The notes under the pieces are model-generated. The model did not search any database and was not told the origin of the DNA. It was given only the letters and a program-made list of their open reading frames with translations. From Saccoglossus kowalevskii (taxonomy: Eukaryota > Hemichordata > Enteropneusta > Harrimaniidae), in contig NW_003141364.1 in the NCBI RefSeq assembly GCF_000003605.2, positions 25,843 through 51,542 on the forward strand: a stretch of 25,700 nt of DNA. Reading direction: 5' to 3'. Made by a program: the position numbers and the translations under genes. Shown here one piece after another: positions 1 through 25,240 of this stretch (position 1 is its first letter; each line of letters begins with the position of its first letter).

Positions 1-1104
1 TCAGACCACAAGATCAATATATTGTATCGGCCGTTTTTCCTCTTTGTAAAAAAAGGGTTTCATCTCACTGTCTGTCCGCGAATTGTGTATTATTCTACGA
101 CAGTCTAGACTTTTGTTTTGTAATGCGTCAGGCAAACGTAATTTGCATACCAATCGCCGTTGACTGCCACAATGATATTTACAAGATTAGTCTGTCCACA
201 TGTTTTTGTATTAAGTATATAACGGGTGGCTGTCTTCAATGCCATCTTAAGAGTGTACCTGAGGGTATATTGTCTTCTGGTAACCACAACCATTTATTAC
301 ATGGCTTCATATGATCAGCTGACAAATACAAGTGGACACAGAACAAAGGAAACAAAAGATTACCTCACTTACTATTGTTTCCAACCCCAAGCTGTGAACT
401 ACTTAACATAACAATATACTCTCAATTAGGCTAAACAATAGACCTTAAAAGTCTATGACATCATCAGTTGTCTTGAATAATTTTGCATGTAATTATAGTC
501 ACTGCAATGGGATAGACAGTAAATCTCTACTTGACCAGATTCTATTGTCTATTTCTGGCAATGTACATATTAGAGCTTTTGATCTGTGTCGGCATGATGA
601 CACGTCTGGTCACTCAAAGAAAAAGATATTTAATATAAAATACAAAGGAAAATTCTTGCTCGCGGTAGCACGTATAACAGCTCCAGCAAAAGATGCATTT
701 TATATTTGAAGGAAAAAATTATCATTATTGTTTGACCCCACCACTCCACACTGAACAAAGGAAATGAACATAAAGCTCCTGATGAGTGAGTTACTTGTAC
801 CTTACGAAATAAGATAAGATTCTAATTCTAAATTACACACATAATAATTTTATCATGTTAATTTTATATCAATTTGAATTGTAATTAATTTGTATATTAC
901 TATCTGTTTGTATTTGTTATAGTGTAATACCCCCCCATTCATAATATGTAAACGTATACGTGGTAACAGTATTTAAACAAAATATAGCGTCTAAAATCTG
1001 CTGTTGTATTATGATAAAAAGATTCAATGAGTATGTATTTGCACATTTTCTTTAAAAGTATATTTCTTTTCAATGCTAATATGTGTAATTCGTATTTATC
1101 TTAG
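1..1104. other. Upstream flank or intron, no supported exon
   Basis: I looked for the expected preceding exon (a lustrin-like exon ending in a CC pair, or a signal-peptide exon ending in phase 1) and found neither. Open frames here are short, lack hydrophobic leaders and show no domain pattern. The sequence is AT-rich with a short C-run near 930. It is most likely intron of the same gene, because the exon at 1105 begins in phase 1 behind a TTAG acceptor. Confidence 0.5.
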
Positions 1105-1257
1105 AATGGGGATCATGGACTTCGTGGTCCTCTTGCAGTGTCACATGTGGTGTTGGTAGTCAGACTAGGACAAGACCCTGTCTAATGGAACCTTGTGATG
1201 TTGATTCCACTACAGAGAGTCGTGACTGTATGACAATTGAATGTCCACTTGTCGTCG
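1105..1257 (+). CDS. Exon: TSP1 repeat 1
   Basis: A single phase 1-1 exon of 153 bases between a TTAG acceptor and a G|GTAAGA donor. It encodes WGSWTSWSSC, then CSVTCG, an R-x-R strand and six cysteines, ending MTIECP. This is the thrombospondin type 1 layout: a Trp ladder, the CxxTCG site that is O-fucosylated in this family, and W-x-x-W sites that can be C-mannosylated. TSP1 domains bind matrix glycans and proteins outside the cell. The exon opens the first of three TSP1-WSC-lustrin units. Confidence 0.93.
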
Positions 1258-2100
1258 GTAAGACATGACGCATTGAAGATTTTTGAAATCAGTCAAAATA
1301 ATTGAAAAATATAAACTATATGTCACAATTCATGTGTGAACCAACAATTGGGGGAAAGTATCCACCAACTTCTAGTGTTGTTTCACAATTTACTAAATAT
1401 ATTAGGCTTGTCTAACGTAAACACATCACATATAAATACGGTCACATTTGATCGGGATATGTCAACAAGCAGGATGTTTTTGTGATATGTATTTGTAACG
1501 TTGGTTGTTCCCAATGAAACAGTGTTGACATTCACACAATATGACAACTGTGACATCAACCTTGTATTATGACATTTTAATTTTATTATACCGACAAATA
1601 CGAGGTGACTGTTGGTTAACATTGCGTAAAGTGATTTTATGTTTTATATAAAAATAAATCACTGAGTACCTGTTTGGTCCAAAATTTAATTTCAATATAT
1701 AATCAATATAAATACATTAAATGATACTGTTAGGTGATAACACAATTAAATTTTATGTTGTTTAAATATTACGCAATCATTGCAGATTACATGTACCTTG
1801 GATGTTGGTCGAATGGAGGTGGTGACCCAACATTAACAACATTAGAAGGTACGGGTAATCCTCACCTTGGTGAAAGTTATACTACCAGAGAGGACAAGGC
1901 GAGGGTAGGTGTGATGTAATTAATATTTCCATATTCTATCAGGCAACCGGAAGTGATATGTATATATCATACATGTTATGGCAGAATGGTCCGATAGTCA
2001 ATATATTTGTTACCACTTTGTGTATCATGCAATCTGATTGTTAGTAATTCGTCGTACTATTTTGTGATTTTGTATTTACTGAATTATTATTATTATTGAG

Positions 2101-2132
<32 letters not shown>

Positions 2133-5100
2133 GGTGTCGGATTGTGTGGACATAGTGTCATTGATACCGATATAGGCGAGTTAAACATATGTCTAAAATA
2201 TGTTATTCAGTACTTCTGTTAATACACAACATGTCTTATTACTGGCGCTTAATATAATTACCGGCTATTTGTATATTATGTGGTCTTGCTCTTTTAAATT
2301 ACTACATACGACTGTTCAGTTATATTTGCTTGAGTATGTCGTTTTTAAATTACTTACACACTGCTATGAATTTGTTTACAGAAATGCGCAAGGGCTGCAG
2401 ATTTTGTAGCAGCATTGTTTTTTGCTCTTTTCGATGGTGGACAATGTTATACATCATCAGAACCAACACTGTCCAACTCAGATGATTGCTTCGAGGGATT
2501 TGGTACAACGAATGCCGTTGATGTGTATTCAGTTTCAGGTGAGTAAGTTGTCATTCATTTGCAAAGCAAATATAATATATAATCACTTTTAGATTTTTGT
2601 TAAATACACTGGTCAGTATAGATATTTTTTTCAAATTTCTAATTGTTCTCCACCCACAGGATTTTCATGCAGTTCATCATCACCTCAGATAGACACAGAT
2701 GGTGTAACAGTGTATTGTCAACTACCTGTCGATGTTCCACCATTTCCCGTTGTTGTTACATGCGATGATGACTATGATTGTGAGGCTGTAGGTTCGATTG
2801 CAGATACAGATGTGTCAATTTGCTGTAAAAGTACGCATATTATATCATGATTTTATAAGTCCGTTCTACTAATTACAATTGTATGACAATTAATACGTAT
2901 GTAAATTAGTAAATAAAATATATCCTGCCAAGCTGTTGTTTCATATGAGCATAAGAAGGTTGCGATATTCACAATCCTGACTAATACTCAAACATAAGTA
3001 TTAAGTCTGTTTGCAGTGCTGATTTGTTTACCTTGTATTATTATCAGAATGGGGTCCATGGACTACATGGTCTTCTTGTACTGCAACATGTGGAGGTGGT
3101 AGTCAGACAAGGACAAGACAATGTCTAAATGAACCGTGTGGTGATACTGTTGAGGAGGTTAGAGATTGCATGACAATTGAATGCCCACTTATTTTCGGTA
3201 AGTTGTGGTAGTATTGATGAATTTTAATTATATCTTGTTTTTTGTTTAACATTTATTTTAATGTAAAAATGTTTCTTCTATTCCGGTGGGTTTTAGAATT
3301 GCTTCATATGTTGTCATGTTTTTGTTCGAAGATGTATTCTAGCCAAGTTCAGTTATTGGATGTAGTTGTGAATGTGATTTGTGTACAAGTGTTTGAAACC
3401 GCATTTTAGACAACATGAATTTTAGTCTTTTAGTAATTGAGCGCGTTTAGAGCGTAAGCTCATTATTTAAGAAATTAAAATTCAATTTCATATTTTTCAT
3501 ATCATATGTTCATATCATAATATTCTTCATAAAATTAATCAATATTACATGCTTATTTTAATTGCATTGTTGCAATGCATTATTGTATGGTATATATTTG
3601 TTTATATTTTCTATCGTCATGTATTATTTCATGTTCTTTATCTTTCAAAATTGCTGTTGGAGAGACTGCAGTCGGGTTGACCAGCGGATAGTCAGATGTA
3701 ATCATTCAATAGACAGCGTAATAAGTAATAACAGCTATAATGAGAATAAACATAAAACATTTATTTTTCTTGTCATCTATCACAATATGCATACATTTAC
3801 ATTTATTACGACACTAATATATTATTCGTGATATAGGAAAACAAGTAAATGAATTGACGTTTGTTTAATTAACTATTTTTCTTCATAGACTATGTCTATC
3901 TCGGATGCTGGTCTGATGACAGCACCGATCCACAATTAATAACACTAGAAGACACAGGTAATCCTCATCTACAAGAAAATTTTATCAGCAGGGAGGAAAA
4001 GGCTAGGGTGAGTGATTAATATAATACGTGCCATTTATTTGTTTTCATAATTTTTGTTAATTAATGTGATTAGATTTGTATGGTGTTATTCTACTGACAC
4101 TAAATACAATTATTAGTTTGTTTGTTTTATTAATGCAACATTATTTAATTATCTTTAACACTAAATGATGTGATCCAATCATTTTTTATTCGACTTCCGT
4201 TGTCGTATGCTCTCTTATCAGCGGTAAATGAGGACAAACTGCGGAAATTCCAAGTTTAGGCATCCATGATTAGGAATATTCTTATCGTATCCTTTGAATA
4301 ATTTAGAACTGTTAAATTGTGTTTATTTCCTTCTATTATCCCTTTATTATGTGAAATTATTGACGTATTTAGCCTCTGGTTTGTCGTTATACTAACAGAA
4401 ATGCGCAAGGGCTGCAGATCATGTTGAAGCATCTTACTTCGCCCTACTTGATGGCGGACAATGTTTTGCATCTTCAGAACCAACAACTACTAGCCTTTCA
4501 AATGAATGTGTGGACGGTTTCGGAACGAATATTGGTGCTGATGTTTACTCCGTGTCAGGTATGTGTGTGCTATCGGTTAAAGAATTAAGCTTTATTCAAA
4601 CATTGATCCTTAAGACCAAAATCAATCACACTATCTTTCGGAACACCTGTTATTTAAATTGTCATAATAACGATTTGATTGACTTCTAGGATTTGCGTGC
4701 AGTTCATCATCAGCGCAAACAAACGGGGAAGGTCTTACTGTATACTGTTACTTACCAATAGATGTTCCAACATTTCCATTTCCACTTGAATCATGTGAAG
4801 CGGATTATGCCTGTGAGATCGTGGGTGCAATTACGGAGGGTGATATCTCAATTTGCTGTAGAGGTTGGCATTTTTAGACTGATAGCTCGTTCTTACGTGT
4901 AACTCGTTCTAACGTGTTATGTTGCAAACAATAGCTTTAGCTTTTGCATGCGTTATTTTGTATGTATCACTGTATATATATGGTGTGTGTGTGTGTGCAT
5001 GATACACGTGAGTTGAGTAGAACAGTATACTGATACAGAGTATAGAGAATATTTATATACAACAAAAGTTAAGATGGAATATTATTATATTGAGACTGTT

Positions 5101-8100
5101 TTTTGCGACCGAGTTTGCCTTTATTCATCGCAGAATGGGATATATGGACCGAATGGTCTGAATGTCTTGTGACATGTGGAGGTAGTACACAGACGCGCAC
5201 TAGATCGTGCATGTTAGATTCGTGTGATGGTCCTTCCGAAGACACCCGAGACTGTATGACAATTGAATGTCCACAGTTTGTTGGTAAGTCGTGTCAAACA
5301 AAATACTTATCTTCGTAAAACCAACATAATTCATATATCTTAACCTTGTTTGGTCTACGATTCATCCTTTAAGCGCATTCTTTGAAACATACTTGTACTC
5401 TCATTTTCGTTGGCAGTAAAATGTGTGTGATGCTTTAGAGTTGACATTTCAAGTAGCTCATCTCTTGGTTTAAAATTATTGTTTCCAGAGTACTTCTATG
5501 TTGGATGTTGGTCAAGTGTTGATATTTTGTTTTCGCTAGAAGGTACCAGCCCCCACTTAGACGGTGCCTTTGGTATCAGGACTGATAGAGGACGGGTAAG
5601 TATATACATAATTATTTATGATATTAAAATACCAATTACTTGTGTCTTTAAAGTGCAAACAAAAACAGTACTTTAAAATTAATGGGGCATGGGATGGGGC
5701 TGTGAGTGTCAGACATCAAAGAACAGTGGGACCGGCCAACCCACTTTGTTTTTTTTTTCATTTGTACTGATCCTCAAGTGTTCTTTTAACTTGTTTGTGA
5801 ATCCCAATATTTTACGATACAATGAAAAGAAATCTAATTCATCCTCTGATTGACAATGTATCCTTTCACCATGGAATTGCTTACTCAGCTCACTGTAATT
5901 CGATCAAAATTTGTCATTATGAATTTTGGTTTCGCATTGCTTTCATGTCAACAAAACCACACCCATGATGTGTGCTGTGCATGGCGCATGCGTGGAGAAG
6001 TAAGGAAAACATAAATGCATACACCACGGAGAATAGACCGTCAGGCGTTCGGCGTGTGAACCACGTTTGTGGTAGTTTGTATCAGATAGTTTAACCTATA
6101 TCGATTCCTGGTTTGCTTTATTTTATACGTAGAAATGTGCTCGGGCTGCATCTGATGCACATAAAGCTTATTTTGCTCTTAAAGACGGTGGAGAGTGCTA
6201 CGCATTTTCTGATCTTCCTGGTAGCAGCGATTCAGCAGAATGTGTGCAAGGCTTTGGTACAAACAATGCGATAGATGTATATTCGGTAACTGGTGAGAAC
6301 ATATTGTATATTACATTCTAAAAGTTAGCCAACATTAACAAGGGAATCATTATCTTCAAAAACTACAATCGGATTGATAGAAATTGTAGACACGCCCACG
6401 CTCCACGCCACTCACCTAAAGAGTATTTACGTGAATTTACGATGCATACGTCACAATGAATGCATAATAAATATCAGTAATGAGTGATTATTTGATCTTT
6501 AAAATATAGAATTGCTATGTAGCACGGGAATACCTAACAGAGATACAGAAGGAAACAACATATATTGCGAACAGCCAGATGGGGTTATGTTTACTGTTGT
6601 TGACTCATGTGTAGATGGTTATGCATGTGAACACGTTGGAAAAGAGGCGGGTGTATCAATGTGCTGTTTGGTTGGTAAGTAATTATTCTTATGTGATGAA
6701 ATCATTTGCGCAGTATTGTTGGCTTTATTTATGAGTAGTCTCTACAAATGAAAAATGACTCTATTTTAGAATTGCCTCTATGAAGTTTTTATATAAAATA
6801 GGTTGGACGGAGCTGATTTAAATCTAGTTGAAGCTTATAATTTTTCACATCTTTCTCCATGAGTCGTATTACTAACGTGACCAACACACTTGATAACCAT
6901 GCCCATATGAAAAATGCATTAATCATTGTACAACCGCAACGTTTGATACAAATTAATTCTGCAAAAATGGCACACAGAATGAACAAATTAAGTTAACGCC
7001 CCATTGATTTGTAATTATTTCTTAACAACCACACTCTTTGTAAAAAGAAGTCTCGTAAACGCCACGCACATAACAAACGCCTCTTCAAGTACAAATGAAT
7101 GATATAAGCACCACGATTACAAAGGAAGCCCTAACGCTACTTAACGTGCAAGTAAACACTGTAGCCCTTCTTTCAGTGCAGTTGAAAACGCTATATTAAA
7201 GGCCACTGTACAAATATATTCTGTGGAAGTTACTCTCAGTACAAATTGATAATCCAAATGGATTAATTACTCACACAATGTTCGTATAATATTGGATACA
7301 TGCTTTCCATTCATATACAGAAAATGTGAGTTGGACAAGCTAAGTTCAGTAATGTAGCAAATTTATAGTAAAACAGAAATGTTGAACGTTAAACAATAAT
7401 TAAGCATTAGAAAATGTCAGAATGCAATAACTTTGACCAACAGAGTAATTTCTAAAGTAGATGTATATACAGGTACATGTATCACAGTTATCATTTCTTA
7501 ATCCCGGGGCTACATACAAAGACGAGCACATTAAACAGACTTTCGCTATCAATTTTAAAAATTCATCACATACATGAATATGAAACGGGAAATGTTTTTT
7601 TTTTATTTTCATGATGCGTGATATCACCATAAACACACACGGCATAATTGCTGAGAAATAAACAAAGCAGTAACTCACGAACACACCATAAACAAAAACC
7701 CATTACAGACGAATCGTTCTCTACACTGGCTAGTATATTAACACATACGGAAACACAGTTTGAATAAAATAAATATAATATCATTATTACAATAGGGTCA
7801 GATAACATTTGTATACTTGTATACTGATGTACACACCATTCTACATTGTTTTTTTCCTTCACGCAGATATCGAATGTCCGCCAAATCAAGTATACAATTC
7901 GTGTGGGTCAGCTTGCCCTCCAACATGCGATATACCCTTCCCTGTGGGCGAATGTACAGAGCAATGCATTGAAGGATGTTTCTGTGAAGATGGTTTAATC
8001 TTAGACATAGGGAACGTGTGTATTCCACAATCAGAGTGTGGGTGTTATGTGATGAACACACTCTATAGGGTACGTGCAATAAATGGAAATTAGTATACCC

Positions 8101-9936
8101 TTTATTTGGTATTTACTATCACTGGCCAAATGCGAAGTTAAAGGAAGCATGCACTAATAACACTACCATGTTGTGGTAATCACTTCCTCGGCTGGATGTA
8201 CATTGGATTACGTTGCAGTGGCCATCTTTAATGTAGTTGTATTTTTGTCTCGTAGTGGAAGTGAACTTTTATGTTACAGTGAAATGTTTATAGGCAGGGA
8301 AACAAATATAATACACAATTGGTTTTTTGATCAATTTAATTTTTCGAAACATTTTCATTTAGAGCTATTAAATAATGAAATCAGTCATTACAGTTATCCG
8401 ATCTTTTAATCATACTGTTCGTGTTGTTATTTAACAGTTCAACGAGATATTGCCAAATGGAGAGACGTGCAGCTGCGAGTGTGAGTATGGGGGTATTACT
8501 TGCTCTAATTCTTCGAAGGATTGTTTTCATTATTCACGCATGACCAGGTCGACAATTTATTTTGTTTATTTATGTGAAAATTATCATGAAATATTTTATG
8601 TATTAGGGCCACAAAAATAATAAATTATCATAAAAATGTTGTTAGATTACCCTTGTATATACACTTAATTAACAATATAAATAGCAATTAGTTTATTTTT
8701 GCATGGTGTTAAACACTTTGTATAGAGACCTAGTATTTCAATCATCAAAACCAAGATGTATATTATGTCTATACAAACTTACATATAAAATGACAAATTT
8801 CAAGAGGATTCAAAATAATATTTGTCAAGATTATCGTCTACAAATGGTCAATGTGAGTTGGCCATTGGTTATTAGTATTTTTTTAGCTTGAATATTTAAA
8901 AAGTAAGGCCAGATCAGTCACATTTTTAAACAGATTAGCTAAAATATGTAAACCCGACTCATTTTCAAAAACTGTAAAATGTTTATCGTTATGTTTTGTA
9001 TTCTGTAGTCACAAACACTGTGTGTAGTGGATGCCATTTTTATGAGCTGAATACGACTCCAGAAACCTGGTACAATGCCAAAAATATCTGTGAAGATAAG
9101 GGTGGACGATTGGCCGTGCTAAATGAGGCTTCCGTTTTTAACCTTGTTCGCCAGTTCATATTCAATAATGGATACGATGATGACGTTAAACACGGGTTTT
9201 GGTTTGGACTCAACGATCTTGTGAATGAGAGTGAATTCGTCTGGTCTGACAACACAACCCTATTAGATGGCGACTATACCATGTGGGCTCGTAAACAGCC
9301 GAGTGGTGGCATTCGTCCACTTGGGGATCAGGATTGTGTGCAAATGTGGTTAGTAAAACAATAATTTTTGTCCTTGATTCCGCTCCAGGAGCACCCTCAA
9401 ATATGATATACAAATTATATACCTTACTCTCAAATGGCTGCTGATATCGTTTGAAGAATGAGAGGGCCACAAGACTTATATGGAACAGTTGACACAATAG
9501 CGATAGACAATAAAACACTATTTTGATATAGCCATTTAGGAATTAAGGTATTGTTATAATGTCAGGATTATTTTATTTGCAAATACCTATAACTAGCATC
9601 TTTCATTACACACTGTATAATGGTATAATGTTTTAACATTTCGACATATTCAGGAAAAAAAGAGCCTTTAGGTGGGATGATACCAATTGTGCAGCCAGGA
9701 AAGGATACATTTGCGAATATAGTAAGTAATAAAATCATCATTACCATAAGCAATTTATATACTCAATTTAATTTATAAACAATTTAACGCTACCCAATTT
9801 CAAATACTAAACAGTTTCAATTATTTAGGTCAGGATTTCCCGAGTTTAACCCATGCTATCACTGTCGAATTTACACTACTTTATTTTATTAATACCGTAC
9901 ATTCGATATATTTTTGCAGCCGATGGGTGTTTTTAA
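1105..9936 (+). CDS. Mosaic extracellular protein (TSP1-WSC-lustrin-like)x3-TIL-C-type lectin; 5' partial, 17 exons
   Basis: I assembled this by hand from splice sites and reading phase. Exons: 1105-1257, 1786-1904, 2382-2538, 2660-2830, 3048-3197, 3889-4007, 4399-4558, 4690-4863, 5134-5283, 5489-5595, 6133-6292, 6510-6674, 7867-8069, 8438-8480, 9009-9348, 9654-9721 and tentatively 9920-9936. All introns are GT-AG, from 121 to 1192 bases. With the first base of the split codon supplied by an unseen upstream exon, the sum is 819 codons including the stop, with no frame break. Approximate residues in this fragment: TSP1 1-51, 201-250, 402-451; WSC 52-143, 251-343, 452-540; lustrin-like 144-200, 344-401, 541-595; TIL and tail 596-677; C-type lectin 678-813. 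Every domain is cysteine-rich and extracellular, so the product is inferred to be secreted or cell-surface, probably in adhesion or recognition. Signal peptide and start are missing. The 3' end may instead continue into the exons from 16731. I do not recognise a named orthologue. Confidence 0.85.
1786..1904 (+). CDS. Exon: WSC domain 1, first half
   Basis: A phase 1-0 exon of 119 bases (TTGCAG acceptor, AGG|GTAGGT donor). It begins with YLGCWSN, the signature opening of WSC domains, and ends TTREDKAR, where the family usually has a Thr before a paired C-x-x-x-C. WSC domains are putative carbohydrate-binding modules. The rest of the domain is on the next exon. Phase and boundary are identical in the copies at 3889 and 5489. 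Confidence 0.85.
2101..2132. repeat. (TA)n microsatellite
   Basis: About sixteen TA dinucleotides with one G substitution, within the intron that splits WSC domain 1. Confidence 0.95.
2382..2538 (+). CDS. Exon: WSC domain 1, second half
   Basis: A phase 0-1 exon of 157 bases with a TTTACAG acceptor and a CAG|GTGAGT donor. It reads KCARAADF, then FALFDGGQCY, then DDCFEGFGT and a terminal VDVYSVS. This matches the WSC pattern of a YFGL-like strand followed by GGxC, a late Cys and a final VY. Only three cysteines lie here and one in the previous exon, against eight in typical WSC domains. Confidence 0.83.
2660..2830 (+). CDS. Exon: lustrin-like six-cysteine module 1
   Basis: A phase 1-1 exon of 171 bases. 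It encodes about 57 residues with six cysteines: FSCSSSSP, VYCQ, VTCDDDYDC and a closing ICC pair. The order C...YC...C-x5-C...CC resembles the lustrin-type cysteine-rich repeat of invertebrate matrix and mosaic proteins. That family call rests on pattern only. It sits between WSC and TSP1 in all three units. Confidence 0.75.
3048..3197 (+). CDS. Exon: TSP1 repeat 2
   Basis: A phase 1-1 exon of 150 bases, TTATCAG acceptor and G|GTAAGT donor. WGPWTTWSSC, CTATCG, TRTRQC and the ending RDCMTIECP give all six cysteines and the O-fucosylation-type motif. It is very close to TSP1 repeats 1 and 3, as expected from tandem duplication of the unit. Confidence 0.93.
3889..4007 (+). CDS. Exon: WSC domain 2, first half
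   Basis: A phase 1-0 exon of 119 bases, the same length as the copy at 1786. YVYLGCWSDD opens the domain and SREEKAR closes the exon. Donor AGG|GTGAGT. Confidence 0.85.
4399..4558 (+). CDS. Exon: WSC domain 2, second half
   Basis: A phase 0-1 exon of 160 bases, one codon longer than the copy at 2382. It encodes KCARAADH, YFALLDGGQCF, NECVDGFGT and DVYSVS. YFALLDGGQC is the clearest WSC core in the window. The same four-cysteine reduction is seen. Confidence 0.84.
4690..4863 (+). CDS. Exon: lustrin-like six-cysteine module 2
   Basis: A phase 1-1 exon of 174 bases. FACSSSSA, VYCYLP, SCEADYAC and ISICC repeat the six-cysteine spacing of the module at 2660. The donor (G|GTTGGC) is weak, but the frame and its match to the other copies support it. 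Confidence 0.75.
4983..4997. repeat. (TG)n microsatellite
   Basis: Short run of TG dinucleotides in the intron before TSP1 repeat 3. Confidence 0.9.
5134..5283 (+). CDS. Exon: TSP1 repeat 3
   Basis: A phase 1-1 exon of 150 bases, CGCAG acceptor and G|GTAAGT donor. It encodes WDIWTEWSEC, CLVTCG, TRTRSC and RDCMTIECP, with six cysteines. The repeated C-terminal motif RDCMTIECP is shared by all three TSP1 copies. Confidence 0.93.
5489..5595 (+). CDS. Exon: WSC domain 3, first half
   Basis: A phase 1-0 exon of 107 bases, four codons shorter than its two paralogues; the loop after GCWSS is shortened. YFYVGCWSS is the WSC start and RTDRGR ends the exon before GTAAGT. Confidence 0.83.
5596..6132. 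other. Intron in WSC domain 3, locally GC-richer
   Basis: No coding signal found. The parts around 5690-5740 and 5940-6070 are less AT-rich than the rest of the intron and may be old insertions, but I recognise no element, terminal repeat or target duplication. Confidence 0.4.
6133..6292 (+). CDS. Exon: WSC domain 3, second half
   Basis: A phase 0-1 exon of 160 bases, CGTAG acceptor and G|GTGAGA donor. KCARAASD, YFALKDGGECY, AECVQGFGT and DVYSVT align with the other two copies and keep the same three cysteines. Confidence 0.84.
6510..6674 (+). CDS. Exon: lustrin-like six-cysteine module 3
   Basis: A phase 1-1 exon of 165 bases. LLCSTGIP, IYCEQ, SCVDGYAC and VSMCC keep all six cysteines although other residues have diverged. 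The C-x-DGYxC spacing and the terminal CC give the best match of the three copies to the lustrin-type repeat. Confidence 0.77.
6675..7866. other. Long intron before the TIL exon
   Basis: 1192 bases, AT-rich. Minus-strand frames at 7400-8079 are open only by chance; they lack domain patterns and partly overlap the TIL exon. I see no RNA gene or mobile element here. Confidence 0.55.
7867..8069 (+). CDS. Exon: TIL (trypsin-inhibitor-like) cysteine-rich domain
   Basis: A phase 1-0 exon of 203 bases, CACGCAG acceptor and AGG|GTACGT donor. It encodes ECPPNQVYNSCGSACPPTC, then GECTEQCIEGCFC, then VCIPQSECGC, which is the ten-cysteine order of TIL domains. An eleventh Cys follows in GCY. TIL domains occur in protease inhibitors and in mucin-, VWF- and SCO-spondin-like proteins. 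Here, inside a mosaic chain, a structural role is as likely as inhibition. Confidence 0.92.
8438..8480 (+). CDS. Exon: short VWC-like tail of the TIL unit
   Basis: A 43-base exon, phase 0-1, with acceptor TTTAACAG and the consensus donor T|GTGAGT. It encodes FNEILPNGETCSCE. TIL domains in SCO-spondin-like proteins are often followed by a short segment with G-x-x-C-x-C, which this matches. It also restores the phase needed by the next exon. Confidence 0.75.
8481..9008. other. Intron between TIL tail and lectin exon
   Basis: AT-rich, 528 bases. I see nothing in it beyond the donor and acceptor. Confidence 0.6.
9009..9348 (+). CDS. Exon: C-type lectin domain 1, main part
   Basis: A phase 1-2 exon of 340 bases. 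It encodes VCSGCHFYEL, then WYNAKNICEDKGGRLAVLNE, then FWFGLNDL, FVWSDNT, WARKQPSGG and QDCVQMW. This is the order of the C-type lectin fold, with the WxxAxxxC helix, the G-x-L-A strand and the WIGL-equivalent strand. The sugar-specificity loop reads QPS, not EPN or QPD. Three N-glycosylation sequons are present (NTT, NES, NTT). Donor TG|GTTAGT keeps the frame. Confidence 0.93.
9654..9721 (+). CDS. Exon: C-type lectin domain 1, C-terminal part
   Basis: A phase 2-1 exon of 68 bases, TTCAG acceptor and A|GTAAGT donor. It encodes FRWDDTNCAARKGYICEY, the last strands and last two cysteines of the lectin fold. The usual WND calcium motif is WDD. The phase-2 join makes a Trp codon with the previous exon, a strong check on the model. 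Confidence 0.9.
9920..9936 (+). CDS. Possible terminal exon (TDGCF-stop)
   Basis: After a T-rich tract and TTTTTGCAG acceptor the frame reads T-D-G-C-F then TAA. Phase 1 matches the donor at 9721. This would end the protein just after the lectin domain. It is only 17 coding bases, so chance is possible. It could also be an alternative last exon or the decayed start of another cysteine-rich exon, since the neighbouring LDLa exons also begin with an early Cys. Confidence 0.4.
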
Positions 9937-16730: not shown

Positions 16731-16905
16731 GTATCGTCATTGGAGAGCGCCATTGTGATATCAACATGCTTGGGAAGTGCTACTTTGTCTCCCAGGAATC
16801 CGTTGGGTGGGCAGACGCCCTAAACAATTGCCAAGTACAAGGGGGAAACCTTGCTGTCCTTGAGAAAAAAATCGAGCGGAAAGCTCTTGACGAACTTGCA
16901 GAACG
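16731..16905 (+). CDS. Exon: C-type lectin domain 2, N-terminal half
   Basis: A phase 1-2 exon of 175 bases, TTACATAG acceptor and CG|GTAATT donor. [17 protein letters not shown], then [19 protein letters not shown], is the typical first half of a long-form C-type lectin domain (paired N-terminal cysteines, WxxAxxxC, G-x-L-A). The frame also stays open upstream to an ATG at 16613, but that stretch is the T-rich acceptor tract. Confidence 0.9.
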
Positions 16906-19900
16906 GTAATTAAAACATATGTTGCGTGTCTGTACGTTTTATATGGACATATTTAGATATTCACGCTAAACGCATTGTTGTAGGCGTGGTAAAATTGTTT
17001 GTGGAAAAAATATAGATATAATAGCCTGAAAATGATACATATATTCCGAACTACAACAAACAAGTAGTTACTCATCTGAGAATATTAATATAGCTATTTG
17101 GAAACTGGAAATGCGCTTAAACACTTGTTGGACAATCGTCATGTGATAACAGGAATATTTCACAGTATGAGCTATGATACTCACTCACATCCAGTTCATA
17201 GATACTAATGCGCCAATTAAATGCATTTTTTATAATTCATAGGTGATATTATGTCAGGTTATTATGTTCCATGTCTAGGTGGTACAGGTGTCTAGAGGGT
17301 CTGTTCTTGATTTTCACAGGCACAATATCACACATTTGCGAATTATCCAGTCACAGAAATATTAAACCATATGTAACACAGTATTAGTGTTAACCATAAC
17401 CACTATTAATGTTTTTTTTAATATATTATAAAACTCTCAACTTGCCTTTGATCAATAATACAATAAATTTAAAACTAATTTTAGATCGACTTGTTTTGAG
17501 CAAATGTGGTACACTTTTTCCAAATGAGAAATGAACATTTTGTCATGGAATTTCCCATTACAAAAAGAAAAAAAAGAACAAAAGATAACTCATATTTCAA
17601 CACTTGTGAGCGTTGTACTACCACTGCGACAACAATAATGTTTGTTGGTTAATTGCCGCCCTAAGTGTTATGGTGCGCCAAGTATGACCAAGCTCGCCAA
17701 ATTTATTTCTTGGCTACCAGACTTCAGCTTCGCGCGTCAATCACAGGGAATAATCGTTCTATTACAGAGCTAGGTTCCCATTTATTTGAAGACATTGCGG
17801 TGAATATCGTTTTTATTATCATTTCATAAATTCTTAGTAGGTAGACTGACGTAGAGTAGTATTGCAGACACGTCTGCGTTTACAAAGGACGGATTTTGAA
17901 ATGTTTTCAAAATAAGTTGCTTATAATTATTCGTTTGAATTCATTACTGGAATTATCAAAAAAATTACTAGTAACTGACGTCTCACTGGTCGTTCGCAAG
18001 GGACGCCGGGAAGCAGCGACAAAGACAATTAGCTGAGGTTGTTGTTTCAATTTGGTCTTGATGCCATTCACTTTGATTGATGTTACACTTCGGGGCGTTT
18101 ACTCGTAATAACTGTCGATCACTCATTTGCACTTTCATTGTTAAAAGGGCAATGTAACGATTATAGGAGATTAGTCTAATATTAATACAGAAATTGCTAA
18201 TGTTGCCGATAAGGTAATACTTGCTGAAAACACATATGCTGATATTTATAATATGCTGATATTTACATTAAACAATTCCTCGGATTCCTTGCATCAATAT
18301 TGCATACCATTTGTCTTAACTTTAATAAAGAAGACGACTAATTTTTTTGAAAACATTTTGAACAGTTCAAGCGCAATGAAGTATAGCACATCATTACAAA
18401 TCACGTTTTATTCATTCATATTATTGATAGGATACATCTCGTATCGTCATTCAATGGATTTCTATTTCTTCGAAATGTATTCACATTTGTCCCAACAAAC
18501 CTTAAGACAAACTTTATCATTACACCACTTTTCTTTCCTTATTTCGGAGGCACCAACAATATAGCGCATGGATACGTGTATGAATCTTGTGAATCCTATC
18601 ACCTTGTAAAACGATGTATAATAATCAAGTCACTGCAAAGTATCATCTATTTGTCTGCTTACAGTACAAGTAATAGGAGACTCTGGATTGGTCTATGTGA
18701 TCTGGCAGGTAGTCCGTACTGGGTCCACCCGAAAATTAAGTATGACATCAACACCAACAGCCATAATTCCTACCCCTGGGCATCTGATGTGAGCAAAAGA
18801 CAAGGACATGACTGTGTTGTAGCTGTGGCAAATGAAAACAATGTATTTCAGTGGCAGTACAGTGACTGTCAGAACTCGGAAACATTTTTGTGTGTTGTAT
18901 CTTCTTCACAGTGTAATGGTATGTACACAATTTTCTCTTCACAACGTGTCTTACTTTGCCGACTAACTAACGCATGCGCTTTTAGAAAAACAGACAAATA
19001 AGATCTGAAGTGGATGAAGAACATTATTCGTTATTGTTATAATTGTTGATTAAATCACAGCAAATCCAATCTCGACACTGTGGTTTGACCATTTTCCGTT
19101 ATGATTCAACACTCGCTAAATTGATTATCTCTACTGCTAGGGTACTATTGTCTTCAGTATTCAGCCCAACAAAGTCTCACAGCTTCACAACTGTCTCCAC
19201 TGTAGCTGGAGACACCTCAGTGAATGCTAGAGAGTCATATGCTCTCATTGTCCAACCGACATGTGTTCAACGTATCTACGCTGTCAATATGTTTGGAACA
19301 ACTGAGGGTGTCCAGCAAAATAGTGTCGATTGAAAATAACAATCATTATACAATGCAGTATATAAACAATATAATCAACCCCATGGCATTAGTGTCGATC
19401 ATATCACTGTTTAATCATCTAATTTGTGTGACACGTCAGATATATTATATGTGCTCTGCTCAACATTGATCCCTTGTATTTCTTGTGGGTATTTTGGGTT
19501 TGTGCCTGCTGTGTACTAATTACTGCACATTTAATGAGTAAAACAACTTATACAGGATGTGAAAAAAAGAAAAAGCTAAGAGTACTTTCAATCTACTCGA
19601 CCAATTATTCAGAGGTTTAAATAGTACTGTTGAGTTTTAGAGAATTCACAAATCAAATGCTGTGACCAATCTTATTGTGTATTAAATAAATTGTATTTAT
19701 TCCAAATTTGAGAATGGTATACAACTTCATGTAGGTTAATTTCTTTCGTTCGTCCGTATTACAATAGGATGTGAAGAAGATCAATTCGCCTGCGACAATG
19801 GAGATTGTATTTGGTACACATGGGAATGTGATGAAGATAATGACTGTGGAGATAATTCAGATGAAGATCACTGCGATGAATGTAAGTTGTTTATGTCTTC

Positions 19901-20883
19901 CATATGGGACATTATACTATTCATTTGAGTTCCACCGTAATGAATTCACTACAATTGGGAGGTGGGAATAGTGTATCAAACCGTTCTATCGAATCGGAAA
20001 TTGTTCATATATATTGCATGCTACAAGAGTATAAACTGAAAATATCTTATTAACCATATGTAACCTAATAGACGAACTTCTAATTTATGAAATTCATTCA
20101 CTATAATATTGCACATAACACAAACGGCTTTTCATTAACAGAGATGCGACTGTCCTAAGATTAATTGAAATTAACGTTACACGTAACTTTAAATGAAGAA
20201 TCTAGAAAATAAATCGCTAAACGGTCGCGCAATATGTATAATTCAAATCGTTTTTTTTTTTGTAATATGCCAAACTAAAAACCTGGGGCAGAATATTTGG
20301 TACAATCGGATGAATGCAGTTCGTAATTTGTCAAATATGAATCAGTGGTAAAATCATAAGAACTGAAAATAATAAAGTTCGTGATCTGTCAAACTATCTG
20401 CAAAATATGCTGGACAACATCGTTGACTATTATATACATAGTCACAGCAACTGCAGTGAAACTTCAAGTTGTGAAACCAATCCAAGATATAAACCAGACA
20501 AACTAATTATCACGAGCTCTGTTTTACATTCGATTTTATAGTGAGCTAATATTACATATTAAGGTGTGGTTCATTTATTACAAACAAAAAGAAAACAGGC
20601 GAAAATATTAGACCCTTTATTCAAGCTTGTCTAGCCAGCGATATCGAGACACGTTCGTAAAACTAAATAAAACAAACAAACAATGGAATAGACGCAAAAG
20701 CATGAATCAGATTCCGACTTTTGACAGTGAACTAGCAGTCCCAATTAGACCAGAAAGTCTTTCTTATGCACATCACTTTTTATATATTAATAATTCTTGA
20801 TGCCGATATATACATTATGTTTCTAACAAAAAAACAGTAGCCAGTGCCTAAATACACATTGCGCTCAATTTAATGCATAAATT

Positions 20884-20948
<65 letters not shown>

Positions 20949-23900
20949 TAATCTGTAAACTATGATTCATATTAATTTGTTAGCATGACGGACATGCATG
21001 TTACATATTTAGTAGATTTTGAATGAAGATGATTTTTACATGTCGTTTTCAATAAAAAGCAGATTCTGAAACTCATCCACACATAATAGGCCCAAAATAA
21101 TTTGATGTCATGATGTTACGAAATACCGGAAGGAACATCATAAAGAGATAGTAACTGTATACTATGTTCACAAAACGGCTCAGTTTATTATCCCTGGGTA
21201 TTTGCAATTTATATACAGACAGTGACATTGTAACATTCGTTTTTAGTGATGTTTAACAATTATATAGGTGTACGTGTATTCCTAACTTCATAAGTTATAG
21301 TTGCATCCTTTGTATTGTTTTTGGATGAAATTTCATCAGTAGTCAAACAGCAAGTTAGATCAATGTTCATAACATTGACAATAGTTTGGTATGATTTAAC
21401 ATATTGCAATATTGTTTCGTGTTCTGATTCATATTTTTTATTGAAGCAGATTGTGCTTGTCATCAATTCAGGTGTAACAACACGAAATGTATAAGTGGTA
21501 GTTGGGAATGTGATTGTGATAACGATTGTGGAGATGCTTCAGATGAAGATCACTGTGGTGGAAGTACGTTATTTACAATTAAGAGCAAATCAAACCTATG
21601 AATGAAGCAAAATGACCCATTCAATATCGTAAATTCTTGACTAATCTGTCTTCAACTTTTTTTGGTCAACATTGTTCACCCAAGCACAAATGCAGTTTAT
21701 CTGTCACACGAATGTTGATGTCATTACATAAACGTAGTTTACTAAAAATAGTTTATTTAAGCTGGAATGTATTTTCGCTTAAATTTGCTTTTAGCTGCTT
21801 TGTATGAAGTTCACCTTCGTCGATTTTTGACTGTACTGCAACATATAAAATAAATATTTCCACTAGCTCAACTGAGAAGTAACTTCTATCTATCTAATAT
21901 TGTGGGTCAATCATATATCTTGCATTTGGATATGGATATAACACATGTTGAACGACTGACAAACAAAAAACAATGCAACATCCCCTTTCAACAGAAGGCG
22001 GAAAATCATATTTAATATTTAATCACCAGTAATATAATATAATATAATATGTTTATCACTCATTAAGACACGTTGCATTATCGTGTGAAATACTTTTCTT
22101 GTCATTGTCACTCTTCTTCACGACTAGAATTCAATGTTTATATTCATGCGAACTCACTTAAAATAATGATCGGATTCGACTTCAAGAAGATGTTTGCGTC
22201 TTTTAGCACTGATTGAAAAATATTATTTGTTATGGGTTCAAAACACTCGAATTCAGATCAATGACACTTGAAAAATATAAAATGTCCTGTGCAAGTTGTG
22301 AGTTATTCTACCAACAGACAATCAGACATACAACTTTACCCTGCCAGAACCTTGTCCTTCTTGGCTTGGGTAATACTATATTGAATTGAGAGAAAATAAA
22401 ACGCAAGTATATATATAAAATATCAGCGATAATTTATAACACCGAAAATGCAATGCAAGGAAACATAACATAAAGACATAAGTTATACAGATTTGCAATG
22501 GTACATCATTTCATATTAATTGTTACATTATTTTTTCTTTAAAAACCAGGCTGTGCTACTGATGAATTCACATGTGACAATATGTTCTGTATTCGTGCTC
22601 ATTGGGAATGTGATGATGACAACGATTGTGGGGATAATTCTGATGAAGAACATTGTGATGAACGTACGTTATTTTCAAATTCAAATTCATAAATTGGGAT
22701 ACTAAAAAAACAGAGTAATTTAGGTATACGCAAGGCTACAACAGTGATTTTGTTATGGACACTAGCTTCAGCAATATGAGCTAGAATGACAACTGCACTA
22801 TTACCTCCGGCTGAGGTTCCGAGGTAATTGGGAGGCAATGGATGCATACAATGTTTCTGGGTAGTGCTTGCCATATACCTGAAAATGAATCACTATAGTA
22901 CTTAGATTGTCCTAGTATCACACATAGTCCTTCCTGCCATGATGGGGCATGAGACGAGTCTTCCTATTTGGCGCATTTTCTTTTTGATGATTTTTGCATG
23001 AAAAATTGAACCACACAACTTAAGTACAGGGTGTGCATTCACTGCCTTGTAGATTAACACTGAGATGTGGCTATGAGGTAAACAGGGAGTCATTCTTAGG
23101 AAACACTGTATCTGTGATCAACGTTAGAAAAGTTCGTTTCTAAAGAGCCAGGGTCATCCACCACATGTTCTGACAAGCGACTTTTAGCTTGGATTGTATT
23201 CCAGCATTTTTATCAAATGTTAATCGTTTCGTGTTCTACTTTCTTTCTTTTTTCTATTGAAAAAGGTTGTGCTAGTTATCAATTCCGATGTAACAATACG
23301 GTATGTATCGATGCTGATTATGAATGTGATGGTGATAACGATTGTGGAGATGCTTCGGATGAAGTTCACTGTGGTAGAAGTACGTTATTTCTGTCTAAGA
23401 GCAAATCAAACCGATGAATGCAAAAGCAGCCACTCAATGTCGTAAATGATATTTTTTTTACTAATCTTGTTTTCACCTTTTCTTCATTAATATTGTTTAA
23501 CCAAGCATGAATACAGTTTATTTGGTATATGAATTGTGATATCTTTACACAAACGTATTTACTGTAAAAAAAATATTTTTAACTTGGAATATATTTTCGA
23601 TAAAAGACGTTTTAGTTTTTTGTACGAAGTTTATTTGATTGATTTTTGAGTTAATTGAACATATAGATTAGTAGGTATTTTCACTATCTCGACCAATTTA
23701 ATAATGTTGGACAAGCATTTCTCGTGCATTTGATATGAATATAATACCTACAATACTCGTACAATTTTAAACACATGTAAAACGACTGATGAACAAAAAA
23801 TAAAAACGCCAACAGAGAATGATTTGTAATAGAAGAAACTGAGCACTAGTAATATGATACTATATGATTTGCCTTATATGTTTAAAAATATATCCATCAA

Positions 23901-25240
23901 GAAATCAAAAGCTCCAAATAACTTAAGGCATTCCCGGTCAATATTAATTACAATAAAAGTATCTATTGTTCTGTTTTAACAATAGTTTGCATTATCGTGT
24001 GACATAGTTATCTTGATATTGTCACTCTCCTTCACGAGTAGACAAATAATTATTATTATTATTATTATTATTATAGCTTGTGCTCCTGGTGAATTTACTT
24101 GTAACAACTCGTTTTGCATAAGTGCAAGTTGGGAATGTGATGAGGATAACGAGCTTTACTGTCGTGGAAGTAAGTTATTTGTGGAATAACCACCCCACAG
24201 ACGATTAAGATACGATATGTTGTCTTATACACACGAACGATAATGAATCTGTAATTAAGTGTTAACTTTGCGTGTTATACTCCGCCTTTGGGTATGGTTA
24301 TGTTTATTATATTACAACAACTTCAGTTGAACTGTAATTTTGAGATACAAAAACGTCTTTGAAAAACTATGCTCAAATGTGATACGGCATTTGAAACCGT
24401 AGTTAAATGACATGGTCCCTGAACATAGCATACAGCGAATATAGGTACACCGATCGGTGAAGCTAATTTGCTACCGTCTCAATCGACATATCTTCGAACA
24501 AATACAGACGCCATTTAGCTCCGTACGCCCGATTGTGGTTGGAGGATCAACACAATTTTCTGTGTTTTAGTTTCTGGAAACGACATGCATATTTTTGGCG
24601 TCGTTTGCAATTTTTTTATGATTTTTTTTTAAAATGTAAGCGTCTGGTTAACGTGTTAATGTCAACCAATTCACAAATGTCATGATATATGCTACACATA
24701 TTTTTCGTAATTTGGTAATGACGAAAGCTTTTTTCAGATTCCATGTTTCTACCCATGCTAAATCTAGATGTTTCCGAAAGTCGAAAGTTAGGTTAGAGAA
24801 ACTTCATAATTAGAAAAGAAAATCAAGTAACATTTCAAGTATTCTGACAATGATTGAGAATTATTAATTATTATAATGGTCTATAACTACTCGCATTCTG
24901 ATCAAACCCACTTAAAATTCTGCAAATTTCGTTTGCAATTTTTGGTCATCTTACACACCAACCAAATACGCAAAATAATGCCAGTCAGAGCAATACTCCA
25001 TTTGGCGTAGGTAATAATATTTTGAATTAAGAAAAATGAGTGCGAAACGCTGGAAAATGTACTGTATAGTATATCTGCTATATAAGTTAAAACATGTAAA
25101 AGCAACAATTATTTTTTCTTTAAAAACAGGTTGTACTACTGAAGAATTCACGTGTGACAATATGTTTTGTATTCCTGGTTCTTATGAATGTGATGATGAC
25201 AACGATTGTGGAGATAATTCTGATGAAAATCACTGTGATC
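16731..25240 (+). CDS. C-type lectin + six LDLa repeats; open at both ends, 8 exons
   Basis: Exons: 16731-16905, 18665-18918, 19768-19881, 21450-21563, 22550-22663, 23266-23379, 24077-24169, 25130-25240. Introns run from 602 to 1759 bases, clearly longer than those of the upstream chain. Phases agree at every junction, giving about 363 codons: a lectin domain on the first two exons, then one LDLa repeat per exon. The last exon ends in phase 1 at a good donor (C|GTACGT), so more exons must follow outside the window. The 5' end is unresolved: either the chain is the 3' part of the upstream mosaic gene (9721 joins 16731 in phase), or it has its own first exon that I did not find. LDLa repeats bind calcium and ligands in receptors and secreted mosaics, so an extracellular recognition role is inferred. 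Confidence 0.82.
16906..18664. other. Long intron splitting lectin domain 2
   Basis: 1759 bases. The first part is AT-rich. The part around 17640-18130 is less AT-rich and may hold old inserted DNA, though no element could be named. The open frame 18253-18564 has no domain features. Confidence 0.5.
18665..18918 (+). CDS. Exon: C-type lectin domain 2, C-terminal half
   Basis: A phase 2-1 exon of 254 bases, CTTACAG acceptor and G|GTATGT donor. It encodes [18 protein letters not shown], then [31 protein letters not shown] and SSSQCN. WIGL and the late C...C...C pattern fix the fold. No EPN or QPD and no WND motif is present, so classical calcium-dependent sugar binding is doubtful. The Arg codon formed across the phase-2 junction supports the model. 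Confidence 0.9.
19768..19881 (+). CDS. Exon: LDLa repeat 1
   Basis: A phase 1-1 exon of 114 bases, AATAG acceptor and T|GTAAGT donor. [15 protein letters not shown] then [16 protein letters not shown] has the six cysteines and the acidic D-x-SDE calcium cage of LDL-receptor class A repeats. Confidence 0.94.
19882..21449. other. Long intron between LDLa 1 and 2
   Basis: 1568 bases of AT-rich sequence with an AAT microsatellite at 20885-20945. No coding or RNA gene signal seen. Confidence 0.55.
20885..20945. repeat. (AAT)n microsatellite
   Basis: About twenty near-perfect AAT trinucleotides, ending with an interruption at AAC. Confidence 0.95.
21450..21563 (+). CDS. Exon: LDLa repeat 2, with two extra cysteines
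   Basis: A phase 1-1 exon of 114 bases. [14 protein letters not shown] then [16 protein letters not shown] keeps the six standard cysteines and the SDE cage. It adds Cys at 21458-21460 and at 21515-21517, where the paralogue at 23266 has Ser and Gly. NNT is a glycosylation sequon. Confidence 0.93.
22031..22050. repeat. (AATAT)4 simple repeat
   Basis: Four perfect AATAT units in the intron between LDLa 2 and 3. Confidence 0.9.
22550..22663 (+). CDS. Exon: LDLa repeat 3
   Basis: A phase 1-1 exon of 114 bases, AACCAG acceptor and C|GTACGT donor. [15 protein letters not shown] then [16 protein letters not shown] is a complete LDLa repeat. It is the duplicate partner of the repeat at 25130. Confidence 0.94.
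23266..23379 (+). CDS. Exon: LDLa repeat 4
   Basis: A phase 1-1 exon of 114 bases. The acceptor AAAAAG is weak in itself but follows a long T/C tract. [15 protein letters not shown] then [16 protein letters not shown] is a complete repeat with an NNT sequon. Partner of the repeat at 21450. Confidence 0.93.
24046..24074. repeat. (ATT)n microsatellite at an acceptor
   Basis: About nine ATT units run straight into the TATAG acceptor of LDLa repeat 5, taking the place of the usual pyrimidine tract. Confidence 0.9.
24077..24169 (+). CDS. Exon: LDLa repeat 5, shortened
   Basis: A phase 1-1 exon of 93 bases, 21 fewer than its relatives. [14 protein letters not shown] is normal, but the C-terminal lobe reads CDEDNELYC. 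Seven codons that hold the fifth cysteine and most of the D-x-SDE calcium cage are missing, so five cysteines remain and calcium binding is probably lost. Frame, donor (A|GTAAGT) and an NNS sequon are intact, so the exon may still be spliced in. Confidence 0.8.
24170..25129. other. Intron between LDLa 5 and 6
   Basis: 960 bases. The part up to about 24880 has no counterpart in duplication copy A and is less AT-rich around 24420-24560. The remainder matches copy A. No gene seen. Confidence 0.5.
25130..25240 (+). CDS. Exon: LDLa repeat 6 (last in window)
   Basis: A phase 1-1 exon of 111 bases, AAACAG acceptor and C|GTACGT donor. [15 protein letters not shown] then [16 protein letters not shown] is complete. 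One codon is missing at the exon end compared with the repeat at 22550. The donor shows that the gene continues past the window. Confidence 0.93.

Follow-up and report, generated by a model that had tools for sequence, protein, structure and literature searches.

A probable astacin-family metalloprotease gene carrying tandem TSP1, WSC-like and six-cysteine units

Several described protein systems share modules with the locus analysed here. The tunicate sperm Tasts consist of an astacin domain followed by TSP1 repeats, are encoded by several clustered gene copies and are regarded as candidates for egg-coat digestion, according to the accessible sections of the reports on them (PMC6353882, PMC11673157). 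For the astacin family as a whole, the characteristic motifs, including the FXGDI motif of the propeptide, are defined in the available part of a further source (PMC9848320), and VWD-C8-TIL modules are described as common in aquatic adhesives in the portion at hand of a study of flatworms (PMC8621496). We compared these systems with a window of 25,700 nucleotides (contig C3249:25843-51542; the 3' end of the window is the contig end) from a genome of 572 Mb in 4830 contigs, which was searched for related loci. Judged from sequence, window positions 1105-9721 are likely to form the 3' portion of a gene encoding a large astacin-family zinc metalloprotease of secreted or pericellular type.

Tandem units and the astacin domains upstream of them

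The first block of the window consists of 16 exons on the plus strand (1105-9721), which join in frame via GT-AG splice sites and encode three successive TSP1 - WSC-like - six-cysteine (six-Cys) units followed by a TIL domain and a C-type lectin domain (CTLD). Each unit comprises four exons with the phases 1-1 (TSP1), 1-0 and 0-1 (WSC-like) and 1-1 (six-Cys). Splice sites, phases and Pfam matches confirm the coordinates, strand and domain order of this block in the preliminary description, and likewise its three tandem copies with the same exon phases.

A genome search with unit 2 yielded at least 151 matches at E up to 1, and TSP1 and WSC-like matches lying close together on one strand were grouped by hand into clusters; these clusters, and the neighbours assigned to them here and below, are drawn from the matches listed. 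Outside the window, nine clusters were identified, two each on contigs C1345 and C2076 and one each on C3981, C3976, C2244, C48 and C2164. A corresponding astacin search gave 51 matches, and in eight of the nine clusters an astacin match ends 162-1454 bases upstream of the first TSP1 on the same strand, for which the chance of a random same-strand position lying within 1.5 kb of an astacin match is, by arithmetic, about 7e-5. This recurrent arrangement suggests that the units form the docking tail of an astacin protease. Complete four-exon units in the window's order number 16 in the stretches examined (window, three; C1345, nine; C2076, two; C3981 and C3976, one each).

On C1345, the joined astacin exons match the Pfam Astacin profile at E 9e-54 over positions 2-188 of 189 and carry the zinc motif HEFLHAVGFYHEQSRYDRD, an SVMHY Met-turn and a FEGDI propeptide motif. 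This astacin leads in phase into eight complete units in the window's order and then into a CTLD, which directly follows the last unit (C1345 316962-313327). In a lenient splice test, sites at the window's phases were present for all 39 domain exons; under strict definitions, in-phase acceptors (C/T-AG) were found for 39 of 39 and donors for 31 of 39, compared with no acceptors, at most four donors and no exon with both in a control with the phase shifted by 1 or 2. Domain order and phases are seen in the paralogs, the catalytic and propeptide motifs in C1345, and we infer the same front end for the window gene.

Within the window, unit 1 spans 1105-2830 (+), with its TSP1 exon at 1105-1257, WSC-like exons at 1786-1904 and 2382-2538 and six-Cys exon at 2660-2830. 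Unit 2 spans 3048-4863 (+; TSP1 3048-3197, WSC-like 3889-4007 and 4399-4558, six-Cys 4690-4863) and unit 3 spans 5134-6674 (+; TSP1 5134-5283, WSC-like 5489-5595 and 6133-6292, six-Cys 6510-6674). All three are delimited by splice sites and phases, and their TSP1 repeats, scanned alone, score 37.7, 41.3 and 35.7 bits, respectively, above the Pfam cut-off for TSP_1 (PF00090) of 21.6 bits. Each of these repeats contains the motifs WxxW and CxxTCG in its sequence, which are marks of C-mannosylation and O-fucosylation, respectively. Units 1 and 2 are 64.6% identical, units 1 and 3 52.4%, and the remaining pair 50.5%. Corresponding introns of different units show no blastn match at E 0.01, and this loss of intron similarity indicates that the three copies are old.

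The preliminary description had labelled the modules TSP1, WSC, lustrin-like, TIL and C-type lectin. In the Pfam scan it had proposed, TSP1 (all three copies), TIL and CTLD stand above cut-off, and WSC and lustrin fall below it or have no match. None of the three WSC copies of the window passes the WSC cut-off (PF01822); copies 2 and 3 match at E 9e-4 and 4e-4 and copy 1 has no Pfam match. Among 12 aligned WSC-like copies, eight match this profile at E up to 1 (best 4e-4), and four cysteines are invariant in these 12, versus eight in eight canonical WSC domains of the same genome. Profile comparison with the true WSC domains using hhalign gave E 4.8e-4 and a probability of 32. A phase-0 intron inside the WSC domain is reported for Kremen 2 in the accessible part of that source (PMC3927609), and the internal phase-0 intron of the WSC-like domain agrees with it; the eight canonical WSC domains compared here are uninterrupted in one frame. 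The domain is best called WSC-like; the sequence weakly supports the WSC name. The lustrin name for the six-Cys domain is likewise weakly supported, with Lustrin_cystein (PF14625) matching window copy 3 (E 0.007, under the cut-off) and the C3976 copy (E 0.029); window copies 1 and 2 have no Pfam match, and a fold search with the six-Cys exon returned no match.

The C-terminal tail and its counterpart on C3976

Downstream of the units, the TIL domain is encoded by an exon at 7867-8069 (+; Pfam TIL E 2e-15, 56.9 bits, cut-off 24.5), followed by a short TIL-associated exon at 8438-8480 (+), which was placed by phases and by its donor, picked among candidates. The C-terminal CTLD comprises exons 9009-9348 and 9654-9721 (+; Pfam Lectin_C E 8e-17, 62.4 bits, cut-off 22.6), and reading through its end leads to a stop at 9727-9729. 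Joining TIL to CTLD requires a phase-1 donor, and agt|GTGAGT at 8480 has the top score among the four in-phase GT sites before the stop; a GC donor site at 8474 scores about equally. A further candidate, CAG|GTCGAC at 8547, was rejected, as it breaks the frame. Beyond the donor at 8480 the reading frame remains open, and 8481-8547 contains a further TIL-associated stretch, CEYGGITCSNSSKDC, which could represent an alternative end of the exon or one in decay.

The closest counterpart of this tail lies on C3976, where the order is astacin - TSP1 - WSC-like - six-Cys - SMB - VWD - C8 - TIL - CTLD, with SMB, the first part of VWD, C8, TIL and CTLD above their Pfam cut-offs. Its TIL is 56% identical to that of the window (38 of 68 residues) and its C-terminal CTLD 48% identical to the window's first CTLD. 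The six-Cys, TIL (1-0) and CTLD (1-2 and 2-1) exons share their phases with the window. Since TIL and CTLD occur on C3976 within an SMB-VWD-C8-TIL-CTLD tail behind astacin, both appear to belong to the astacin tail. Profile scans of the window did not find SMB, VWD or C8 (best E 0.17, 0.08 and 0.32), and the window tail reads as that of C3976 without these three domains.

The same modules also allow a different explanation, namely a secreted adhesive or mucus component of the VWD/TIL/CTLD type, to which the protease part would be incidental. TIL occurs together with CTLD, LDL and TSP1 modules in flatworm temporary adhesive proteins, as far as the accessible part of that source describes them (PMC8621496), and paralogs contain VWD, that on C3976 as VWD-C8-TIL. 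Against it, C1345 retains the zinc ligands, the Met-turn and the propeptide motif, and we consider this explanation unlikely.

A second block and the number of genes

The window contains a second block (16731-25240), which lies outside the finding of the preliminary description. It begins with a CTLD (exons 16731-16905 and 18665-18918, +; Pfam Lectin_C E 1e-11, 45.8 bits) of an N-terminal type, whose listed relatives outside the window lie 5' of astacin, and continues with six LDLRa exons at 19768-19881, 21450-21563, 22550-22663, 23266-23379, 24077-24169 and 25130-25240 (all +, phase 1-1, matching Pfam Ldl_recept_a). The fifth of these exons is without the DCGDxSDE stretch of its neighbours, still scores above the Pfam cut-off (32.1 bits) and, owing to this absence, is predicted to be probably unable to bind calcium. 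An open frame of 1735 amino acids with many LDLRa-like matches was also observed on another contig (C4670:36570-41495).

A genome search with the second CTLD and LDLRa gave 49 matches at E up to 1e-6, with 148 of 351 candidates scored. Eight places outside the window are listed with relatives of the second CTLD, and each of them is followed on its own strand by an astacin at a distance of 1.4-5.7 kb; an isolated match to the first exon at C2076:208420, which lies another 14 kb upstream, is included in this count with its neighbour. N-terminal CTLD matches accompany five of the eight astacin-bearing unit clusters (C3981, C2244, C3976 and both on C2076). The two CTLDs of the window share 27% identity; between the first of them and the C-terminal CTLDs of C1345 and C3976 the value is 46-48%. 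The position of the relatives of the second CTLD and the low identity between the two CTLDs argue for two tandem genes, and the window very probably straddles two neighbouring astacin genes, the first with its 3' end and the second with its 5' end. With the family-derived profiles, scans of both strands of the window revealed no additional exon at E < 0.03. The reversed window served as chance control and gave no match at E 0.05 with seven profiles, which derive from sequences of this astacin family; the Pfam matches are independent of them.

A number of observations weigh against the assignment of the window to astacin genes of this plan. The profile scan found no astacin exon in the window, and the unit cluster on C2164 has no astacin match. 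The order is not absolute: on C3981 a six-Cys fragment lies between astacin and TSP1, and one astacin on C2076 is followed by a weak six-Cys match (E 0.025) with no TSP1 or WSC-like match between them. In the C3976 TSP1 exon, the two best GT donors are out of phase. No TIL, SMB, VWD, LDLRa or C8 was found in the 36 kb examined on C1345, and scans of the 4.9 kb preceding its astacin for an N-terminal CTLD and for LDLRa were negative (best E 0.85 and 1, respectively); C48 and the two C1345 genes are without an N-terminal CTLD match. Furthermore, all 24 window exons from 1105 to 25240 can be joined in one frame as a single GT-AG chain, and a strong donor follows the CTLD exon ending at 9721, as it also does in two paralogs; both features would fit a longer gene.

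The last two observations favour a single very long gene (units - TIL - CTLD - CTLD - six or more LDLRa) for a mosaic protein that would serve as receptor or matrix component and either lack a protease domain or be independent of one. In-frame joining is, however, the default for phase 1-1 modules, so symmetric phases can make two neighbouring genes look like one chain, a caution that applies to mosaic genes in general. The two blocks are separated by 7009 bases, versus introns of 121-1192 bases in the first block and 602-1759 in the second, and the gap is about six and four times the longest of these, respectively. Moreover, no CTLD or LDLRa follows the C-terminal CTLD within about 6 kb on C1345 or 10 kb on C3976. 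The 24-exon chain, our first model, was rejected because the second CTLD is of the N-terminal type, and a single gene appears improbable.

Could the first block and the corresponding part of the C1345 gene instead be alleles of a single gene? Window positions 1037-7818 align with C1345 units 6 to 8 in three pieces, introns included, and DNA identity is 82-86% over most of this range. The homology nevertheless stops at 7818, within the intron preceding the TIL exon and 48 bases before it; TIL was not found on C1345, and the C1345 CTLD is 46% identical to the first CTLD of the window. There is thus little likelihood that the two are alleles. The TSP1 exon of window unit 2 (match at 2995-3201) shares 94% identity with its equivalent in C1345 unit 3 (C1345:331680-331474), and the alignment containing its positional partner is 82% identical, a difference that suggests gene conversion between units.

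ADAMTS-like proteins, which stand beside ADAMTS, provide a parallel for a protease-free offshoot (decoy or structural) that kept nothing but the units and the tail. The window and the C2164 cluster without astacin would suit such an offshoot, but it is very unlikely given the astacin in eight of nine clusters and the fact that the window units correspond to units 6 to 8 in an array of eight and not to its beginning, from which more is expected upstream.

As a separate observation, a 150 amino acid open frame on the minus strand downstream of C3981:1156 resembles a reverse transcriptase fragment by eye.

Proposed working and comparison with described systems

Under the tandem astacin assignment, the family plan would be [CTLD - LDLRa(n)] - propeptide - astacin - (TSP1 - WSC-like - six-Cys)1 to 8 - [SMB - VWD - C8 - TIL] - CTLD, in which the bracketed parts are present in some genes and missing from others. 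The first window gene would contribute its last three units, TIL and C-terminal CTLD, and the next gene, beyond the 7 kb gap, its N-terminal CTLD and six LDLRa modules. The protease would be synthesised as a latent zymogen held by the aspartate switch of the FXGDI motif and freed by cleavage of the propeptide. The combination of lectin, WSC-like domain and TSP1 motifs suggests a glycan-binding arm of this latent secreted protease, in which the TSP1/WSC-like array and the lectin would act as exosites that bind a glycan-rich matrix, mucus, egg coat or body coat and keep the protease on its substrate. Anchoring of a secreted protease on a glycan-rich matrix is thus its likely role; ligand, substrate and tissue are all conjectural. 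An extracellular recognition or matrix function had been proposed in the preliminary description. The composite repeat is indeed extracellular and likely to contact glycans or matrix; the block is probably not a self-contained protein, given the astacin upstream of the paralogous clusters.

More tentatively, these genes may represent lineage-expanded giant astacins, in which a cassette of three domains was amplified to as many as eight copies, forming an adjustable docking arm whose end can be exchanged (TIL-CTLD, CTLD alone or SMB-VWD-C8-TIL-CTLD). Tandem copies that diverge or are homogenised fast would be suited to recognising a partner that itself changes, for example an egg coat, a symbiont or a mucus glycan. 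With the unit placed behind astacin, what looked like an odd extracellular mosaic becomes an enzyme family open to testing.

The tunicate Tasts differ from this plan in that WSC-like, six-Cys, VWD, TIL and CTLD modules are not named in the accessible sections of the reports (PMC6353882, PMC11673157). They also appear to differ in lineage, since the mitochondrial genes of the genome analysed here fit the invertebrate code (code 5) better than the ascidian one, at one informative site. These genes have AGA at an ND1 serine and AAA at lysines, positions which we take to be conserved sites, and COX1 contains neither AGA nor AGG. The flatworm adhesion proteins ap1 and ap2 share CTLD, vWD, C8, TIL, TSP1 and LDL modules with the loci described here, but neither a protease nor WSC is named for them in the part of the source at hand (PMC8621496). 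Nematostella Nv326 combines TSP1 and the WSC superfamily within one protein, but its table row in the available portion identifies it as hemicentin and names no astacin, TIL or lectin (PMC4877951). Oikopleura Oik24 contains an astacin-type metalloproteinase domain and LDLa, but an EGF-like domain and no TSP1 - WSC-like array is named in the accessible text (PMC3390340). A full-text literature search, whose coverage leaves out most subscription journals and whose sources were available in part, did not find the domain combination among the matches listed.

The catalytic motifs and FXGDI propeptide of the astacin family itself are shared by C1345, and TSP and C-type lectin are among the accessory domains given in the available part of PMC9848320; that part does not describe a tandem array of TSP1, WSC-like and six-Cys domains with SMB-VWD-C8-TIL, and 'wsc' and 'ldl' have no occurrence in the main text. 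In other known astacins, WSC-like and six-Cys domains that score below profile cut-offs may lie unnoticed between TSP1 repeats, and published astacin architectures could hence be incomplete. The window gene is probably a variant within the astacins that carries the TSP1 - WSC-like - six-Cys array.

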